64,000 bases of DNA from Cytophagales bacterium. Its GTDB lineage: Bacteria; Bacteroidota; Bacteroidia; Cytophagales; Thermoflexibacteraceae. The notes under the pieces are model-generated. The model was not told the origin of the DNA. It made no database searches and saw only the letters and a list, made by a program, of their open reading frames with translations. Both the position numbers and the translations under genes were made by a program. Positions 621 to 52,673 of the stretch are shown here, piece after piece (the first letter of the stretch is position 1; the number at the start of each line of letters is the position of its first letter). The stretch covers positions 62,001 through 126,000 of the forward strand of contig JAAFKA010000005.1 of assembly GCA_013299115.1 (NCBI GenBank). The letters run 5' to 3'.

Positions 621-630
621 AAAAACGTGC

Positions 631-699
631 TTTGGGATTCTCAAATCCCAAAGTAAAAGTTTTTCAAACTCTGCGTTTCGGTTTTGAGAAACCGAAACG
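631..699. repeat. REPIN-like inverted doublet of CTCA/TGAG-loop hairpins
   Basis: Two hairpins lie 19 bp apart. The first (631-654) has arms CTTTGGGATT and AATCCCAAAG around a CTCA loop. The second (674-699) has arms CGTTTCGGTTT and AAACCGAAACG (sharing the central TGAG) around a TGAG loop. The loops are reverse complements, so the pair is inverted. The same layout recurs at 25007-25060, 38491-38840 and 39192-39288. Confidence 0.75.
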
Positions 700-730
700 A
701 CGTTACTTTTACCGAAACCACGTTACTTTC

Positions 731-24906: not shown

Positions 24907-25006
24907 ATTATTATTTTGTGAGCCTGTTTTTTATTTAATTCAGGGCTACGGTAAGTCCTATTTTTGACAAAATATTTTTTATTTCGTGCTTGCAGGTTCG
25001 GTGTGT

Positions 25007-25060
25007 TTGCGGGTTCTCAAACCCGCAACGTGCATACTTTCGGTTGTGAGCAACCGAAAG
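25007..25060. repeat. REPIN-like inverted hairpin doublet
   Basis: First hairpin 25007-25028 has arms TTGCGGGTT and AACCCGCAA with a CTCA loop. Second hairpin 25037-25060 has arms CTTTCGGTTG and CAACCGAAAG with a TGAG loop. Same inverted order as at 631-699; it sits between porP/sprF and the OmpA remnant. Confidence 0.75.
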
Positions 25061-25091
25061 CACACCACAAGCAGAAGTATAGCTGCAATTA

Positions 25092-38490: not shown

Positions 38491-38840
38491 GCACTTTCGA
38501 TTGCTCACAACCGAAAGCACTTTATTTTGTGTTTGCGATTTCTCAAAACCGCAATTTCTACACTTTCGGTTGTGAGCAACCGAAATCACACCGAAAGCAC
38601 TTTATTTTGTGTTTGCGGTTTCTCAAAACCGCAATTTCTACACTTTCGGTTGTGAGCAACCGAAATCACACCGAAAGCACTTTATTTTGTGTTTGCGGTT
38701 TCTCAAAACCGCAATTTCTACACTTTCGGTTGTGAGTAACTGAAAGCACACCGAAGGCACTTTATTTTGTGTTTACGGTTTCTCAAAACCGCAATTTCTA
38801 CACTTTCGGTTGTGAGCAACCGAAAGCACACCGAAAGCAC
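38491..38840. repeat. 80-bp tandem array of inverted hairpin doublets
   Basis: Four head-to-tail 80-bp units at 38521-38600, 38601-38680, 38681-38760 and 38761-38840, preceded by a partial unit from 38491. Each unit has one hairpin with arms TTGCGGTTT/AAACCGCAA (loop CTCA-type) and one with arms TTTCGGTTG/CAACCGAAA (loop TGAG). Units differ by a few substitutions, some compensated. With flanks, this fills the 475-bp gap between the giant amidase and the next gene; frames across it are translated repeat, not genes. Confidence 0.9.
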
Positions 38841-38910
38841 TTTCATAGTTTTTGCGGTTTTCTACGATATAAAAGTAAAAAGCAGCCACACCAACCTCAA
38901 TAGGATTCCC

Positions 38911-39162
38911 CTATTTATATTCATCTTCGCCAGCTTGCAGATATTTTATGATTTTGGCAAACAAGCCTGTTTTCTTGTGATGCCCTTGCAAGCCGAAGCC
39001 TGCATAAATCAAGGTCAGTTTTTGCTCTAATTTCTCTTCGGACATATTCAGGTTGCGGGCAATTTCTTTGTTCGTATTGCCTGCAATGAGTTTGTCCATG
39101 ATTGCCTTTTCTTCGGCAGTCAGTTTTTTGTAATCGGAGTAGTTTTCAAATTGATAACACAT
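38911..39162 (-). CDS. Orphan LuxR-type helix-turn-helix protein
   Basis: 83 aa, essentially one DNA-binding domain: LTAEEKAIMDKLIAGNTNK, then EIARNLNMSEEKLEQKLT, then LIYAGFGLQGHHKKTGL. This is the LuxR/GerE fold with no receiver domain. ATG 39162 is the start; the upstream frame to 39243 is translated repeat (CGCEQPQ). It lies near a response-regulator/kinase pair, but repeats separate them. It could regulate neighbouring surface genes; there is no direct evidence. Confidence 0.65.
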   Translation of the reverse strand: MCYQFENYSDYKKLTAEEKAIMDKLIAGNTNKEIARNLNMSEEKLEQKLTLIYAGFGLQGHHKKTGLFAKIIKYLQAGEDEYK

Positions 39163-39191
39163 AAGAGTTTTTGGGTTAAAAGTTTTTCGTG

Positions 39192-39288
39192 CTTGCGGTT
39201 GCTCACAACCGCAAGTTTTACGTTTCGTTTCGGTTGTGAGCAACCAAAATCACCTTATTTCGTGCTTGCGGGTTCTCAAACCTACAAG
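39192..39288. repeat. Three CTCA/TGAG-loop hairpins
   Basis: CTTGCGGTTG/CAACCGCAAG with CTCA loop (39192-39215), TTTCGGTTG/CAACCAAAA with TGAG loop (39228-39249), and a degenerate CTTGCGGGTT/AACCTACAAG with CTCA loop (39264-39288). Confidence 0.7.
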
Positions 39289-39346
39289 TATTCAAGTTTC
39301 AGTTTTGAGGACAGTAACGACTGCCGACCGAAACCACCATTACGTA

Positions 39347-39370
39347 GGTGCGGACTGAAGTCCGCACTAC
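39347..39370 (-). repeat. REP-like GTAG palindrome
   Basis: On the minus strand GTAG followed by arms TGCGGA and TCCGCA around CTTCAG, a one-base variant of the CTTTAG core. Confidence 0.7.
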
Positions 39371-39518
39371 AGCAAAAAAGCCTTACCAAAAACCATTTTT
39401 CGGTTTCTGATAAGGCAAAGGTAATTGGGTAATCCCTTAAAAATGGTAGCCAAAAGGATACTACCAGCAATCAAAAAGATACTTTTGGCAAACGATGGGC
39501 TACTGCTAACCAAAACGT

Positions 39519-39593
39519 AGTAATGAGAAAGATATTGCCAAAGATGACATCTTTTTAAAAGATGTCATCTTTGGCAATATCTTTCTCATTACT
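39519..39593. repeat. 75-bp perfect palindrome downstream of the response regulator
   Basis: Two 37-bp arms around a single T at 39556, with no mismatch in the arms; the outer part is AGTAATGAGAAAGATATTG and the centre ACATCTTTTTAAAAGATGT. It ends 11 bp before the response-regulator stop on the minus strand, so it can act as a terminator. Otherwise 39163-39603 (441 bp) holds only the repeats listed here and a weak hairpin with arms GCCTTA/TAAGGC (39380-39416). Confidence 0.85.
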
Positions 39594-46776: not shown

Positions 46777-49314
46777 TTAATTTATCTTATGCCAATTACT
46801 CCCTGTGCTTACCAACTGGACGGTGGTACCTGCTGCAATGCTGGTGCTGGTTGTTCCGTTGGCAGTAGTATAGGTGCTGCTGGTTACAGCATTGCTGCTG
46901 TGGTTCACAATTATATAAATACGCCCTGCATTGGTACTGCTGGCAGTTGGCAGATTGACTTGGTTATTGCTAATTGTACCATTATAAATCACCATATAGT
47001 CTGTATCTCCCAACGTGGTATTGTTGTTGTTGGTCGTGATAGCAGTTGTTTTTACAGCCATACTTCCGTTTAACTGTAAAGTGCTGTTGGGCGAAGTAGT
47101 GCCAATGCCCACATTGCCTCCATTGCCATAAACAGTTAAATACCTTGTGCCACTTTTTTCTAAAAAGAAATCTGAGCCTGTTTGCATATTCCAACCACTG
47201 TTCATATTCACTGTCCCTATGAAAGTTGCATCGCCTATTACGTGCAGTTTGGTAGCAGGTGTGGTAGTGCCAATACCCACATTGCCACTCAAGGCATTGT
47301 ATTGGTTGTTGCCCGAAGTAGTCCAATTGGTTGTAGAACTTGGTGCTGCCCATGACGCATTGCCCGAAGCATCGGATTTGAGAACATAACCGTTGGTTGC
47401 CCCATTAGTCATTTGAAAATTGGTGGTTTTGGTTTTGCCCGAAACTTCTAATTTTTCGTCAGGCGAAGTAGTGCCAATGCCCATTTTTCCATCACTCTCA
47501 ATTACAATTAATTGGGAAACAGAACCTGAATTTGTTCCTGATTTAATACGGAGTTTATCTGCATAATTGTCAATAAAATAAGCTGTTGTTTGTGTTGCAC
47601 CTCTGTTCAGTTGAATTTCGCCTCCTTCGGTATTAGACACACTGCCAATAGCTAATTTACTTTCAGGAGCAATATCAAATGTTCCAACACCAACTTGATT
47701 GTTGTTGTCGTGTAGTGTCCCATCGATAAGTGTTGAGCCAGTCCAGCGAGGTATATAATTAGCATTTGTACTACTTACTTTGGGGTCTGTTTCGGTGGCT
47801 GATGTCCAAGTTCCATTTCCCAAAGCATCAGATTTTAACACATAACCATTCGTTGCTCCATTGGTCATTTTGAAATATTTAGTGGCTAAATTTTCATTGA
47901 TAGTTAAAGTTTTGGTAGAAAAATCACCATGAATTAAAGGCGAATTTGTATTGGAATTACTGATATACAGTTTATTAGAACCTGTTTCAAAATAACCTGC
48001 TCTATAACCAAGATATACATTGCCGCTACCCACAACATTTGTAGCACCGCTTAAATACCCCAAAGACGTATTGTTATTTCCTGTATTAGTTGCAAAACCT
48101 GCATAATTACCCAATGTAGTATTAAAATTGCCCGTAGTAACTTTCCCTAAAGTTTCATATCCTATGGCTACATTATGCAATCCTTCTGTGTTGGAATTGA
48201 GTGAACCATTGCCAACAGCTATGTTAAATTCGCCTATTGTGTTATCATCTAACGAGTTTTGACCTATGGCGACATTATTAGAACCTGTTGTGTTTTTGGT
48301 AAGGGCAAAGTTCCCAATGGCAGTATTCAAATCGCCTGTTGTGTTAATTTTTAGTGCTTCTTTACCTATAGCAGTGTTCCAACTACCTGTAGTGTTGTTA
48401 TATAGAGCCTGATAACCCAAGCCTATATTATTCTCGCCTGTAGTATTGGCATTCAATACATTGTTGCCAATAGCCACTAAACCCCGATTACTACTTGTGC
48501 CTTCGCTTGTACCTGTGCTTCCTGCTCCCGAATTTTGTCCCAAGTAAGAAGTGCCAACATAACGTAAAGCCCCTGAAGTATTGGCTACCCAAGTTCCATT
48601 GCCCGAAGCATCAGATTGTAAAACATAACCATTCGTTGCACCATTGGTTAGTTGGAAAGTGGTAGTTTTGGTCTTGCCTGAAACGTCTAACTTTTCGGTG
48701 GGTGTATTAGTACCAATGCCCACATTGCCATCTGTTCTAATACTCATACGATGCTGCCCTGTCGAAGTTTGATAAATGGTAAAGTCCTTAGTGCCTGAGC
48801 CATTCATATCTTGTAAAATTGCCCATGTATCTAAACGCATAGCAGCACGTCGGCTGGTTGTATGTGTGGAAGGTGCAATAAACAGTGTATGTGGAAACTG
48901 GGTACTACCCGACTCCAAATATAATGAGGGACTTGTGCCTGTGTGTCCAAGATGTAACAGTGAAGTGGGCGAAGTAGTACCAATACCTACATTGCCACTT
49001 AACGCATTGTATTGATTGCTACCCGAAGTTGTCCATGTGGTTGTGTTGGGTATAGCCGTCCAAGCCGAACCACTGTAAAAATAAAAACTGTTTAGGTCTG
49101 TATCATAGACCAGCAGCCCTGTGGCAGGTGTACTAATACCTGTGCGTTGCGTAGTGGTTAGGCGTGGCACTAATACACCTCTGTCGGTGCTGCTCACGTC
49201 TAAAATAGCCGAATTGTCGGCTGCATTGCCCGAAGTGTTGATAGCAACAGATTGGGCTTGGGCAGTAAAATGCAAAGCAAATGCTGCCAAAATGGAGAAA
49301 AGTGTTTTTTTCAT
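46777..49314 (-). CDS. Head-repeat adhesin 2
   Basis: 845 aa from ATG 49314, the start of the signal peptide (SILAAFALHFTAQAQS). The N-terminal ~100 residues are GNAADNSAILDVSS and GLLVYDTDLNSFYFY. Linkers of the pattern VGIGTTSP-EKLEVSGKTKTTNFQ recur. A block of ~23-aa YadA-head-like repeats (NTTGSNNVAIGQNSL, GNYAGFATNTGNNN) follows. The tail is LPTASSTNAGRIYIIVNHSS to HKIN. No T9SS C-terminal signal or trimeric-autotransporter anchor is seen, so export and attachment are unclear. It is intact, unlike adhesin 1. Confidence 0.85.
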   Translation of the reverse strand: MKKTLFSILAAFALHFTAQAQSVAINTSGNAADNSAILDVSSTDRGVLVPRLTTTQRTGISTPATGLLVYDTDLNSFYFYSGSAWTAIPNTTTWTTSGSNQYNALSGNVGIGTTSPTSLLHLGHTGTSPSLYLESGSTQFPHTLFIAPSTHTTSRRAAMRLDTWAILQDMNGSGTKDFTIYQTSTGQHRMSIRTDGNVGIGTNTPTEKLDVSGKTKTTTFQLTNGATNGYVLQSDASGNGTWVANTSGALRYVGTSYLGQNSGAGSTGTSEGTSSNRGLVAIGNNVLNANTTGENNIGLGYQALYNNTTGSWNTAIGKEALKINTTGDLNTAIGNFALTKNTTGSNNVAIGQNSLDDNTIGEFNIAVGNGSLNSNTEGLHNVAIGYETLGKVTTGNFNTTLGNYAGFATNTGNNNTSLGYLSGATNVVGSGNVYLGYRAGYFETGSNKLYISNSNTNSPLIHGDFSTKTLTINENLATKYFKMTNGATNGYVLKSDALGNGTWTSATETDPKVSSTNANYIPRWTGSTLIDGTLHDNNNQVGVGTFDIAPESKLAIGSVSNTEGGEIQLNRGATQTTAYFIDNYADKLRIKSGTNSGSVSQLIVIESDGKMGIGTTSPDEKLEVSGKTKTTNFQMTNGATNGYVLKSDASGNASWAAPSSTTNWTTSGNNQYNALSGNVGIGTTTPATKLHVIGDATFIGTVNMNSGWNMQTGSDFFLEKSGTRYLTVYGNGGNVGIGTTSPNSTLQLNGSMAVKTTAITTNNNNTTLGDTDYMVIYNGTISNNQVNLPTASSTNAGRIYIIVNHSSNAVTSSTYTTANGTTSTSIAAGTTVQLVSTGSNWHKIN

Positions 49315-49320
49315 AATAAG

Positions 49321-49389
49321 AAGCCCCCCAACCCCCAAAGGGGATTTTTGAAGTGTTTGCGTAAGCCCCCTTTGGGGGTTGGGGGGCTT
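49321..49389. promoter_or_regulatory. GC-rich leader hairpin of adhesin 2
   Basis: Exact copy of 46244-46312, six bases before the ATG of adhesin 2. Confidence 0.75.
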
Positions 49390-49853: not shown

Positions 49854-52673
49854 TTAATTTATCTTATGCCAATTACTCCCTGTGCTTACCAACTGGACGG
49901 TGGTACCTGCTGCAATGCTGGTGCTGGTTGTTCCGTTGGCAGTAGTATAGGTGCTGCTGGTTACAGCATTGCTGCTGTGGTTCACAATTATATAAATACG
50001 CCCTGCATTGGTACTGCTGGCAGTTGGCAGATTGACTTGGTTATTGCTAATTGTACCATTATAAATCACCATATAGTCTGTATCTCCCAACGTGGTATTG
50101 TTGTTGTTGGTCGTGATAGCAGTTGTTTTTACAGCCATACTTCCGTTTAACTGTAAAGTGCTGTTGGGCGAAGTAGTGCCAATGCCCACATTGCCTCCAT
50201 TGCCATAAACAGTTAAATACCTTGTGCCACTTTTTTCTAAAAAGAAATCTGAGCCTGTTTGCATATTCCAACCACTGTTCATATTCACTGTCCCTATGAA
50301 AGTTGCATCGCCTATTACGTGCAGTTTGGTAGCAGGTGTGGTAGTGCCAATACCCACATTGCCACTCAAGGCATTGTATTGGTTGTTGCCCGAAGTAGTC
50401 CAATTGGTTGTAGAACTTGGTGCTGCCCATGACGCATTGCCCGAAGCATCGGATTTGAGAACATAACCGTTGGTTGCCCCATTAGTCATTTGAAAATTGG
50501 TGGTTTTGGTTTTGCCCGAAACTTCTAATTTTTCGTCAGGCGAAGTAGTGCCAATGCCCATTTTTCCATCACTCTCAATTACAATTAATTGGGAAACAGA
50601 ACCTGAATTTGTTCCTGATTTAATACGGAGTTTATCTGCATAATTGTCAATAAAATAAGCTGTTGTTTGTGTTGCACCTCTGTTCAGTTGAATTTCGCCT
50701 CCTTCGGTATTAGACACACTGCCAATAGCTAATTTACTTTCAGGAGCAATATCAAATGTTCCAACACCAACTTGATTGTTGTTGTCGTGTAGTGTCCCAT
50801 CGATAAGTGTTGAGCCAGTCCAGCGAGGTATATAATTAGCATTTGTACTACTTACTTTGGGGTCTGTTTCGGTGGCTGATGTCCAAGTTCCATTTCCCAA
50901 AGCATCAGATTTTAACACATAACCATTCGTTGCTCCATTGGTCATTTTGAAATATTTAGTGGCTAAATTTTCATTGATAGTTAAAGTTTTGGTAGAAAAA
51001 TCACCATGAATTAAAGGCGAATTTGTATTGGAATTACTGATATACAGTTTATTAGAACCTGTTTCAAAATAACCTGCTCTATAACCAAGATATACATTGC
51101 CGCTACCCACAACATTTGTAGCACCGCTTAAATACCCCAAAGACGTATTGTTATTTCCTGTATTAGTTGCAAAACCTGCATAATTACCCAATGTAGTATT
51201 AAAATTGCCCGTAGTAACTTTCCCTAAAGTTTCATATCCTATGGCTACATTATGCAATCCTTCTGTGTTGGAATTGAGTGAACCATTGCCAACAGCTATG
51301 TTAAATTCGCCTATTGTGTTATCATCTAACGAGTTTTGACCTATGGCGACATTATTAGAACCTGTTGTGTTTTTGGTAAGGGCAAAGTTCCCAATGGCAG
51401 TATTCAAATTGCCTGTTGTGTTAATTTTTAATGCCTCTTTGCCTATAGCAGTGTTCCAACTACCTGTAGTGTTGTTATATAGAGCCTGATAACCCAAGCC
51501 TATATTATTTTCGCCTGTGGTATTGGCATCCAAAGCATTATTACCCATGGCAATCAAATTTCGATTACTACTTGTGCCTTCACTTGTGCCTGTACTGCCT
51601 GCCCCCGAAGTTTGCCCTAAATAAGACGACCCTACATAACGCAACGTACCTATCCCACTGCTGTTTGTCCAAGTTCCATTTCCCAAAGCATCGGATTTTA
51701 ACACATAGCCATTCGTTGCACCATTGGTTAGTTGAAAATTGGTAGTTTTGGTTTTGCCCGAAACTTCCAATTTTTCGGTTGGTGAAGTTGTGCCAATTCC
51801 TAAGCCTATTCCTGTAAAAACATAATTATTTGAGTTTACAGTGTTGTTAAACATACTTGTATAAAATTTGAAATCTCCCGCAGAAATAAAATTATTTGTT
51901 CCCCCAGCATAACCTCCATTATCAAATAATGTCCAGAGAATAACACTGGAAATGTGCATAGAGTATTTTGTACCTGCTGTGAGTGGAATATTACTAAAAT
52001 TGAAAGTAACAGTTGTTCCATTGGGTGTGATGGTAGATTGCCCAAGCAAAGTACCAGCAGTACCCTCACCTTCATAAATAGACAAGGTACGGGTGTCGGA
52101 AATAGAAAGTTCGAAAAATAAGGTAGCACTTGTCAAAAAACCTGTTGTGCCAACCGTAAAAGACTGCCAAGCATCAGTTGGCAAATTATATCCATTGGTA
52201 ACACCCGATAAGGTGGTTGTATTTTGGTCGGTGTAAGCCCCTCCTGTAGATGTCCCTACAAAATGCACTGTTTCCAAAGGGCTAAGTGTGCCTATGCCAA
52301 CTTTTCCGTTGTCATCTATTTTTATGCCACCTGTGCCATTATTATTGAGTTTTTGCCCATTCAATTTTATATCTTGTGTGGCAGTGTGATTTCCCAAATT
52401 GTCGGCTGCAATAGCAGTCCATACAGTTCCGTTATAAAAATAAAAACTGTTCAGGTCTGTGTCATACACCAGCAAGCCTGTGGCGGGGGTGCTGATACCT
52501 GTGCGTTGTGTAGTGCTTAGGCGTGGCACAAGCATACCTTTGCTGGTGCTGCTCACGTCTAAAATAGCCGAATTGTCGGCTGCATTGCCCGAAGTGTTGA
52601 TAGCAACAGATTGGGCAGAGGCTGCAAAATGCAAAGCAAATGCTGCCAAAATGGAAAAAAGTGTTTTTTTCAT
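49854..52673 (-). CDS. Head-repeat adhesin 3
   Basis: 939 aa with signal peptide MKKTLFSILAAFALHFAASAQ. The C-terminal ~660 residues are nearly or fully identical to adhesin 2. The N-terminal part is different: after TSKGMLVPRLSTTQ it has a unique insert of ~150 residues (ETVHFVGTSTGGAYTDQN, YNLPTDAWQSFTVGTTGFL, LSISDTRTLSIYEGEGTAG) resembling a carbohydrate-binding-like beta sandwich, before joining the linker VSGKTKTTNFQLTNG. So adhesins 2 and 3 share tails and differ in heads. No sorting domain seen. Confidence 0.85.
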   Translation of the reverse strand: MKKTLFSILAAFALHFAASAQSVAINTSGNAADNSAILDVSSTSKGMLVPRLSTTQRTGISTPATGLLVYDTDLNSFYFYNGTVWTAIAADNLGNHTATQDIKLNGQKLNNNGTGGIKIDDNGKVGIGTLSPLETVHFVGTSTGGAYTDQNTTTLSGVTNGYNLPTDAWQSFTVGTTGFLTSATLFFELSISDTRTLSIYEGEGTAGTLLGQSTITPNGTTVTFNFSNIPLTAGTKYSMHISSVILWTLFDNGGYAGGTNNFISAGDFKFYTSMFNNTVNSNNYVFTGIGLGIGTTSPTEKLEVSGKTKTTNFQLTNGATNGYVLKSDALGNGTWTNSSGIGTLRYVGSSYLGQTSGAGSTGTSEGTSSNRNLIAMGNNALDANTTGENNIGLGYQALYNNTTGSWNTAIGKEALKINTTGNLNTAIGNFALTKNTTGSNNVAIGQNSLDDNTIGEFNIAVGNGSLNSNTEGLHNVAIGYETLGKVTTGNFNTTLGNYAGFATNTGNNNTSLGYLSGATNVVGSGNVYLGYRAGYFETGSNKLYISNSNTNSPLIHGDFSTKTLTINENLATKYFKMTNGATNGYVLKSDALGNGTWTSATETDPKVSSTNANYIPRWTGSTLIDGTLHDNNNQVGVGTFDIAPESKLAIGSVSNTEGGEIQLNRGATQTTAYFIDNYADKLRIKSGTNSGSVSQLIVIESDGKMGIGTTSPDEKLEVSGKTKTTNFQMTNGATNGYVLKSDASGNASWAAPSSTTNWTTSGNNQYNALSGNVGIGTTTPATKLHVIGDATFIGTVNMNSGWNMQTGSDFFLEKSGTRYLTVYGNGGNVGIGTTSPNSTLQLNGSMAVKTTAITTNNNNTTLGDTDYMVIYNGTISNNQVNLPTASSTNAGRIYIIVNHSSNAVTSSTYTTANGTTSTSIAAGTTVQLVSTGSNWHKIN

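Follow-up and report, generated by a model that had tools for sequence, protein, structure and literature searches.

A hairpin array in a Cytophagales genome, in all likelihood a DNA element copied by a matching RAYT

Introduction

As described in the text of PMC6006769, RAYTs belong to the HUH single-strand nucleases; what they recognise is a 5' guide tetranucleotide together with a hairpin, and their presumed role is the mobilisation or amplification of REPs. The best-known case is that of the GTAG REPs of E. coli with their BIMEs, REPINs and RAYT (PMC6006769, PMC3116915, PMC2817692), in which a short hairpin bearing an unpaired foot on one of its sides occurs extragenically in high copy, in inverted doublets and arrays, and the cognate RAYT carries the same hairpins on its flanks. 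According to the text of PMC3733652, tagged stem-loops of 20-40 bp make up the GTAG and CGTC super-families (24 GTAG and 4 CGTC families) and form HH, TT and HT dimers as well as groups. The same text notes a GTGG tag for one family and records that REPtrons can be missing by deletion, so that orphan REP populations survive the loss. For Bacteroidetes, the text of PMC6006769 defines RAYT subclass 2.6 (group 5 of Bertels), with about 179 aa, the motifs NH[LIV]H and YIH[QN]NP and a conserved SS, and describes its REPs there only as 'atypical secondary structures'. The IS200/IS605 elements also use a Y1 HUH transposase, subterminal hairpins with a 5' guide sequence and a ssDNA mechanism.

The hairpins analysed here belong to a Cytophagales genome of 5.5 Mb in 74 contigs (G000, the host genome), and a tandem array of them lies in a stretch of 64,000 nucleotides, C45:62001-126000, referred to below as the window. 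They share the listed traits of the E. coli GTAG REPs, the flanked cognate RAYT being found in relatives; unlike these, they have a GTG foot and a CTCA tetraloop that is fixed while the stem covaries, their host is a member of the Cytophagales, and the RAYT of the clade linked to them was not found in the genome of the window. The tagged stem-loop, the dimers and the groups are also those of the GTAG and CGTC super-families as the text of PMC3733652 presents them, from which the CTCA hairpins differ in their 4-nt loop and longer stem of 9-10 bp; a GTG/CTCA type was not found described in that text, in which neither Runella nor Cytophaga appears. The linked transposases resemble subclass 2.6 by motif and length only, going by the description in PMC6006769, and one of them, L129, has WE where the subclass is listed with WQ. 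Likeness to IS200/IS605 extends to the enzyme fold, the hairpins with a guide and the single-stranded mechanism, but the present repeats number hundreds of dispersed copies, with a gene of RAYT type that is mostly single-copy. The REP/RAYT literature searched, in which PMC6006769 was compared by its text description, yielded no combination of a GTG foot with a fixed CTCA loop. The system is a REP/RAYT system and hence of a known kind, unusual in its fixed loop and GTG foot.

Results and discussion

The hairpins, doublets and array reported for the window in the earlier note are present at the positions given there or a few bases off, as judged by Tandem Repeats Finder and inspection (Table 1). 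Tandem Repeats Finder returned the array as a single one with 96% match, and the most plausible view is that a single inverted pair, together with a half-hairpin linker, was amplified locally. A CRISPR array was considered and rejected, units and linkers both being repeated and solitary copies being dispersed genome-wide. When folded as ssDNA, the doublets of the window form far better structures than dinucleotide shuffles (z -5.3 to -7.9); the first of them folds into two 11-bp hairpins (z -7.9). The placement of the array between a giant T9SS gene and an HTH gene was likewise read correctly, both neighbours lying on the minus strand. The T9SS-secreted protein carries Amidase_2, Ig_7, BACON and Por_Secre_tail domains. 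The array is located upstream of the start of its gene, with the first hairpin about 56 bp away, and could belong to the leader of this amidase gene, where any regulatory role would be putative. The last doublet of the window is situated upstream of the ATG that probably starts the LuxR-type HTH gene. Elsewhere in the window, two large minus-strand ORFs (46777-49338 and 49854-52673) display the same pattern of small overlapping ORFs and are apparently a tandem duplication.

Table 1. Hairpin features and neighbouring genes of the window, and RAYT genes of the host genome flanked by other palindromes
Feature	Location	Strand	Description
Inverted doublet	627..701	.	627-653 on +, GTG foot and CTCA hairpin; 675-701 on -, foot GTC; just 3' of ORF ending at 620
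Inverted doublet	25003..25063	.	25003-25029 +, 25037-25063 -; GTG feet outermost
Single degenerate CTCA hairpin	38491..38517	+	Foot GCA; at array edge; absent from the list of the earlier note
Tandem array	38505..38843	.	Period 80, 4.2 copies; unit is inverted doublet GTGTTTGCGGTTTCTCAAAACCGCAA ... TTTCGGTTGTGAGCAACCGAAATCAC plus half-hairpin linker ACCGAAAGCAC; doublets at 38529-38589, 38609-38669, 38689-38749, 38769-38829
Inverted doublet	39189..39253	.	39189-39215 +, 39227-39253 -
Single copy GTGCTTGCGGGTTCTCAAACCTACAAG	39262..39288	+	Missed by the earlier note
T9SS-secreted protein, 2092 aa	32157..38435	-	Neighbour gene; not part of element
LuxR/GerE-type HTH ORF	38911..39243	-	Neighbour; true start probably ATG 39162; not part of element
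RAYT L151	C74:148622		Flanking palindrome GTGTGGRCT...AGTCCACACTAC
RAYT L152	C11		Flanking palindrome TTACCTATCGGGTGGCT...
RAYT L154	C74:79463		Flanking palindrome AAACCTTATAAGGTCT...
RAYT L155	C16		Flanking palindrome ACTTTCCAAGTCT...
RAYT L158	C28		Flanking palindrome TTGTCCGACACCT...

The basic unit proved to be smaller than the doublet, which is not a unit of its own kind. It is a 27-bp asymmetric hairpin composed of a 5'-GTG foot, a covarying stem of 9-10 bp and a CTCA loop, with the consensus 5'-GTG, [C/G]TT(T/G)CGGTT(T/G), CTCA, (A/C)AACCG(A/C)AA(G). The reality of the CTCA/TGAG-loop family is attested by a 464-kb sample of the host genome (400 kb plus the window), in which this loop accounted for 47 of 136 perfect hairpins with a 7-bp stem and a 4-nt loop, followed by TAAA with 8; in the shuffled control the best loop reached a count of 2, and neither CTCA/TGAG nor TAAA was among its top loops. 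In 64 aligned copies, GTG was present at -13 to -11 in 55-58 copies per position, with no matching foot on the 3' side. Because these 64 copies had been chosen for pairing, a re-selection was made on the left half alone, which yielded 50 unique copies. Their right halves paired in 92.6% of cells, against at most 82.8% in 1000 shuffles, and 47 cells were changed on both sides, against a shuffle maximum of 23; the stems do differ and yet pair, as had been claimed. None of the 50 carried a 3' CAC, and a 5' GTG was found in 28 of 31 core-selected copies. As in REPs, the unpaired 5' foot is conserved, and it is GTG (mostly GTGC or GTGG), not GTAG.

Covariation also held on a wider alignment. In a mixed-genome alignment that includes RAYT-linked copies, and whose rows from relatives were selected for pairing, compensatory changes were observed in 9 of 10 pairs and the covariation score was 0.488, compared with 0.132 for the shuffled alignment and at most 0.081 for slid versions. 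The invariance of loop and foot in this alignment is by construction, since both were part of its selection; independent evidence for them is provided by the loop ranking in the 464 kb and by the foot counts in the core-selected and left-selected copies.

The family extends far beyond the window. The core pattern matched 215 times in the host genome, against 4 matches of the reversed pattern, and the pattern that includes the foot 191 times, against 0, for an overall copy number of about 190-215. With these many further copies and the strong covariation, neither of the outcomes that the earlier note named as a refutation came about. Almost all copies are intergenic, whether single, in inverted doublets or in tandem arrays; in the 464-kb sample only 7 of 58 copies fall inside ORFs of at least 150 aa, though such ORFs cover 83% of it, and copies are often found just downstream of, or between, co-directional ORFs. 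The 27-bp unit is in these respects a REP, that is, a short palindrome of roughly 20-40 bp present in high copy between genes. The order with CTCA first and TGAG second, which had been noted for the doublets, holds in the window and fails in general: the 38 close neighbour pairs of the sample comprise 11 inverted pairs with feet outermost, the arrangement of BIMEs and REPINs, 4 inverted pairs with feet inward and 23 direct pairs, so the order is one arrangement among several. The covariance-model matches listed for the host genome include 28 copies with an identical top score, which suggests recent activity.

Among relatives the distribution is patchy. A genome of the same genus holds about one match and most genomes of the same family none to few, while dozens occur in one genome from a different family within the order. 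A count over 390 genomes of the order showed the pattern to be concentrated in a few, with 327 copies in G334, 306 in G360, 146 in the host genome, 61 in G375, 39 in G021 and 19 in G167, with counts of 0-2 for the control pattern throughout. Of the named records that gave matches, nearly all are Runella (R. limosa, R. defluvii, R. aurantiaca). In pairwise alignments, orthologous loci of sister Runella species differ by whole units; for example, L117 has one doublet more than L112, and L102 one repeated block more than L107. A clean empty site for a single element was not obtained in the same-genus genome G001, the DNA of which is too divergent over the window. A match of G001 around window positions 39540-39572 is found again at the ends of many contigs.

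A Pfam Y1_Tnp search of the relatives led to a protein of 179 aa in G011, a genome of the same family, the gene of which (L129) is flanked on both sides by GTG/CTCA hairpins. This protein scored 93.3 bits against the NCBIfam model NF047646 for REP-associated tyrosine transposases (cut-off 80) and contains the motifs NHIH (HUH) and YIHNNP (tyrosine), and the only PDB match of its family profile was the solved TnpA-REP 4er8, an HUH Y1 nuclease. Relatives of L129 were searched in the 390 genomes and the flanks of the returned loci inspected. A tree of 41 RAYTs contains a clade (support 94/99) in which 11 of 12 members have CTCA hairpins beside the gene, on both sides in L129, L177, L178, L180, L181 and L184 and on one side only in five others; the exception, L186, has an internal stop and no CTCA hairpin. 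Beside the 29 RAYTs outside the clade, no bona fide GTG/CTCA hairpin was found, the matches there being isolated, weak and devoid of the GTG foot. The flanking-hairpin label changes twice on the tree, as compared with 9.8 times when shuffled. A RAYT flanked by its cognate REPs, as expected of a REP-RAYT system, is thus present in relatives.

The association is also evident at the level of genomes. Thirteen of the 390 contain a clade RAYT and 13 contain at least 5 pattern copies, with 6 in common (hypergeometric p 5.6e-7). Covariance-model counts, which are lower bounds (150 best candidates scored) from a model built partly from RAYT-linked copies, were at least 28, 57, 64, 117, 121 and 133, among others, in genomes with a clade RAYT, and 0-2 in most genomes chosen without one. 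In G334 and G360, the clade RAYT sits inside long arrays. Several observations speak against the link: some members of the clade have hairpins on one side only, L182 is accompanied by a non-GTG foot, L183 is devoid of a plain HUH motif, L176 reads NHTH, and the Runella-genus genomes G021, G167 and G175 carry copies without a clade RAYT. Two further loci deserve mention. In G009 (L130/L136, C108:4669-5204), a RAYT 75% identical to that of G011 is broken by in-frame stops and has a CTCA hairpin nearby, an instance of the system decaying within the host's own family. In G021 (L132/L163, C55:73167), GTGGTCTGTGTCTCCACAGACC hairpins flank a RAYT that does not belong to the CTCA clade; they share the GTG foot, have TCTC as a related loop and may represent a sister recognition type.

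Taken with high confidence, the hairpins represent a REP family of the Cytophagales with a GTG foot and a fixed CTCA loop, their doublets correspond to BIMEs or REPINs, and the whole would be mobilised by a RAYT; it is very probable that the array, as a DNA element, is copied by such a matching enzyme. The earlier suggestion that an unknown enzyme mobilises the array as a DNA element was essentially right, and the type of enzyme can now be named as a RAYT of one clade in relatives. The same note had offered transcription as a structured RNA, and hairpins that act mainly as RNA, as transcribed stem-loops under RNA-level selection with a role in transcript protection, termination or regulation at the ends of genes or within 5' UTRs, would agree with the strong folding (z-scores of -5 to -8, obtained for ssDNA), with the covarying stems, with the intergenic placement beside co-directional ORFs and with one terminator-like site at 39191-39216. 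This reading is possible and not needed, because stem covariation is equally expected for a ssDNA hairpin read by a Y1 HUH nuclease. Given further the want of any Rfam match at the gathering threshold, the occurrence of copies beside unrelated genes, in both orientations and in arrays, the near absence from the same-genus genome and the linkage to a transposase clade, we consider a mainly RNA-level function quite improbable; a secondary RNA role of the DNA element is possible.

As the clade RAYT was not found in the 74 contigs of the host genome, its CTCA repeats seem to be orphans, either because the RAYT was lost or because of a gap in the assembly, and any mobilisation there must be past, in trans or due to a gene missing from the assembly. 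The cognate RAYT was either lost recently or lies inside a repeat array that the assembly did not close; populations of REPs that outlive their REPtron are known from the text of PMC3733652. The host genome does possess at least 8 RAYT-like genes, none of which belongs to the CTCA clade. These were rejected as cognates, five being flanked by other palindromes and the others by none. At least five of them (L151, L152, L154, L155 and L158; Table 1) have their own distinct palindromes on both sides, each RAYT with a different family, which indicates several independent REP systems in one genome. A palindrome at window 39344-39373, GCGGACT(GAA/TTTA)AGTCCGCACTACAG, resembles the hairpins that flank L151, and GCGGACT recurs at window 25371 and 43108.

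The host genome also offers an IS200-type candidate at C35:23112, and the repeats might be viewed as ends or MITE-like relics of IS200/IS605 elements moved by such a TnpA. One CTCA element does lie directly (about 40 bp) upstream of this Y1 gene; it is a single copy on one side, amid other repeat families, and the gene was rejected as the mobiliser for that reason. With 54.0 bits, slightly short of the 55-bit cut-off, the protein matches the IS200 model and not the RAYT model, and the other IS200-like Y1 loci that were checked are all without these hairpins, whereas members of the RAYT clade have them, which leaves an IS200/IS605 origin even less probable than a mainly RNA-level function. The locus itself (L051, 1001-2500) contains the IS200-like TnpA gene within dense arrays of at least 3 other repeats (CCCTACGTTTCACGTAGGG, AACCCCTTCGGGGTT and GCACGTGAATCYG), in addition to the CTCA hairpin upstream. 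Least credible of all are palindromes bound by a transcription factor or nucleoid protein, kept by the host and arrayed by replication slippage alone: their position upstream of some genes and the fixed period of the tandem arrays would fit, but a stem that is free to change if paired, next to a fixed loop and a fixed one-sided foot, is the opposite of a duplex-binding site, and the patchy distribution tracks the transposase clade.

Proposed mechanism and implications

For mobilisation by a RAYT, the following course is proposed. By analogy with described RAYTs, the clade enzyme, a Y1 HUH ssDNA transposase, would read GTG(N) plus the hairpin, and probably also the loop, in ssDNA, for instance on the lagging strand. 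It would cleave there and thereby copy or move REPs and REP pairs between genes, and we infer this catalytic action of the clade RAYT on the hairpins. In the host, where the cognate RAYT presumably was lost or falls into an assembly gap, an orphan REP population would remain. The 80-bp array may have grown by local unequal exchange, by slippage or by repeated RAYT action.

That the loop stays fixed while the stem drifts and yet pairs suggests that the RAYT probably reads the loop as well. We tentatively propose that the clade RAYT might read the CTCA loop and the GTG foot, with drift of the stem sequence tolerated wherever pairing is preserved, although the chances stand somewhat against so specific a code. 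If true, this loop and foot code would differ from TnpA-REP recognition based on the stem and a GTAG guide, and one enzyme could maintain many stem variants, or mosaic families, per genome. A previously 'atypical' group of Bacteroidota RAYTs gains a clearly defined REP partner, in which the fixed parts of the hairpin (loop and foot) can be told apart from the part that drifts and compensates (the stem). The genomes with a RAYT (with more than 300 copies in two of them), those without (none to few copies) and the orphaned host genome provide a natural contrast, which makes the maintenance of REPs after the loss of their RAYT directly testable.
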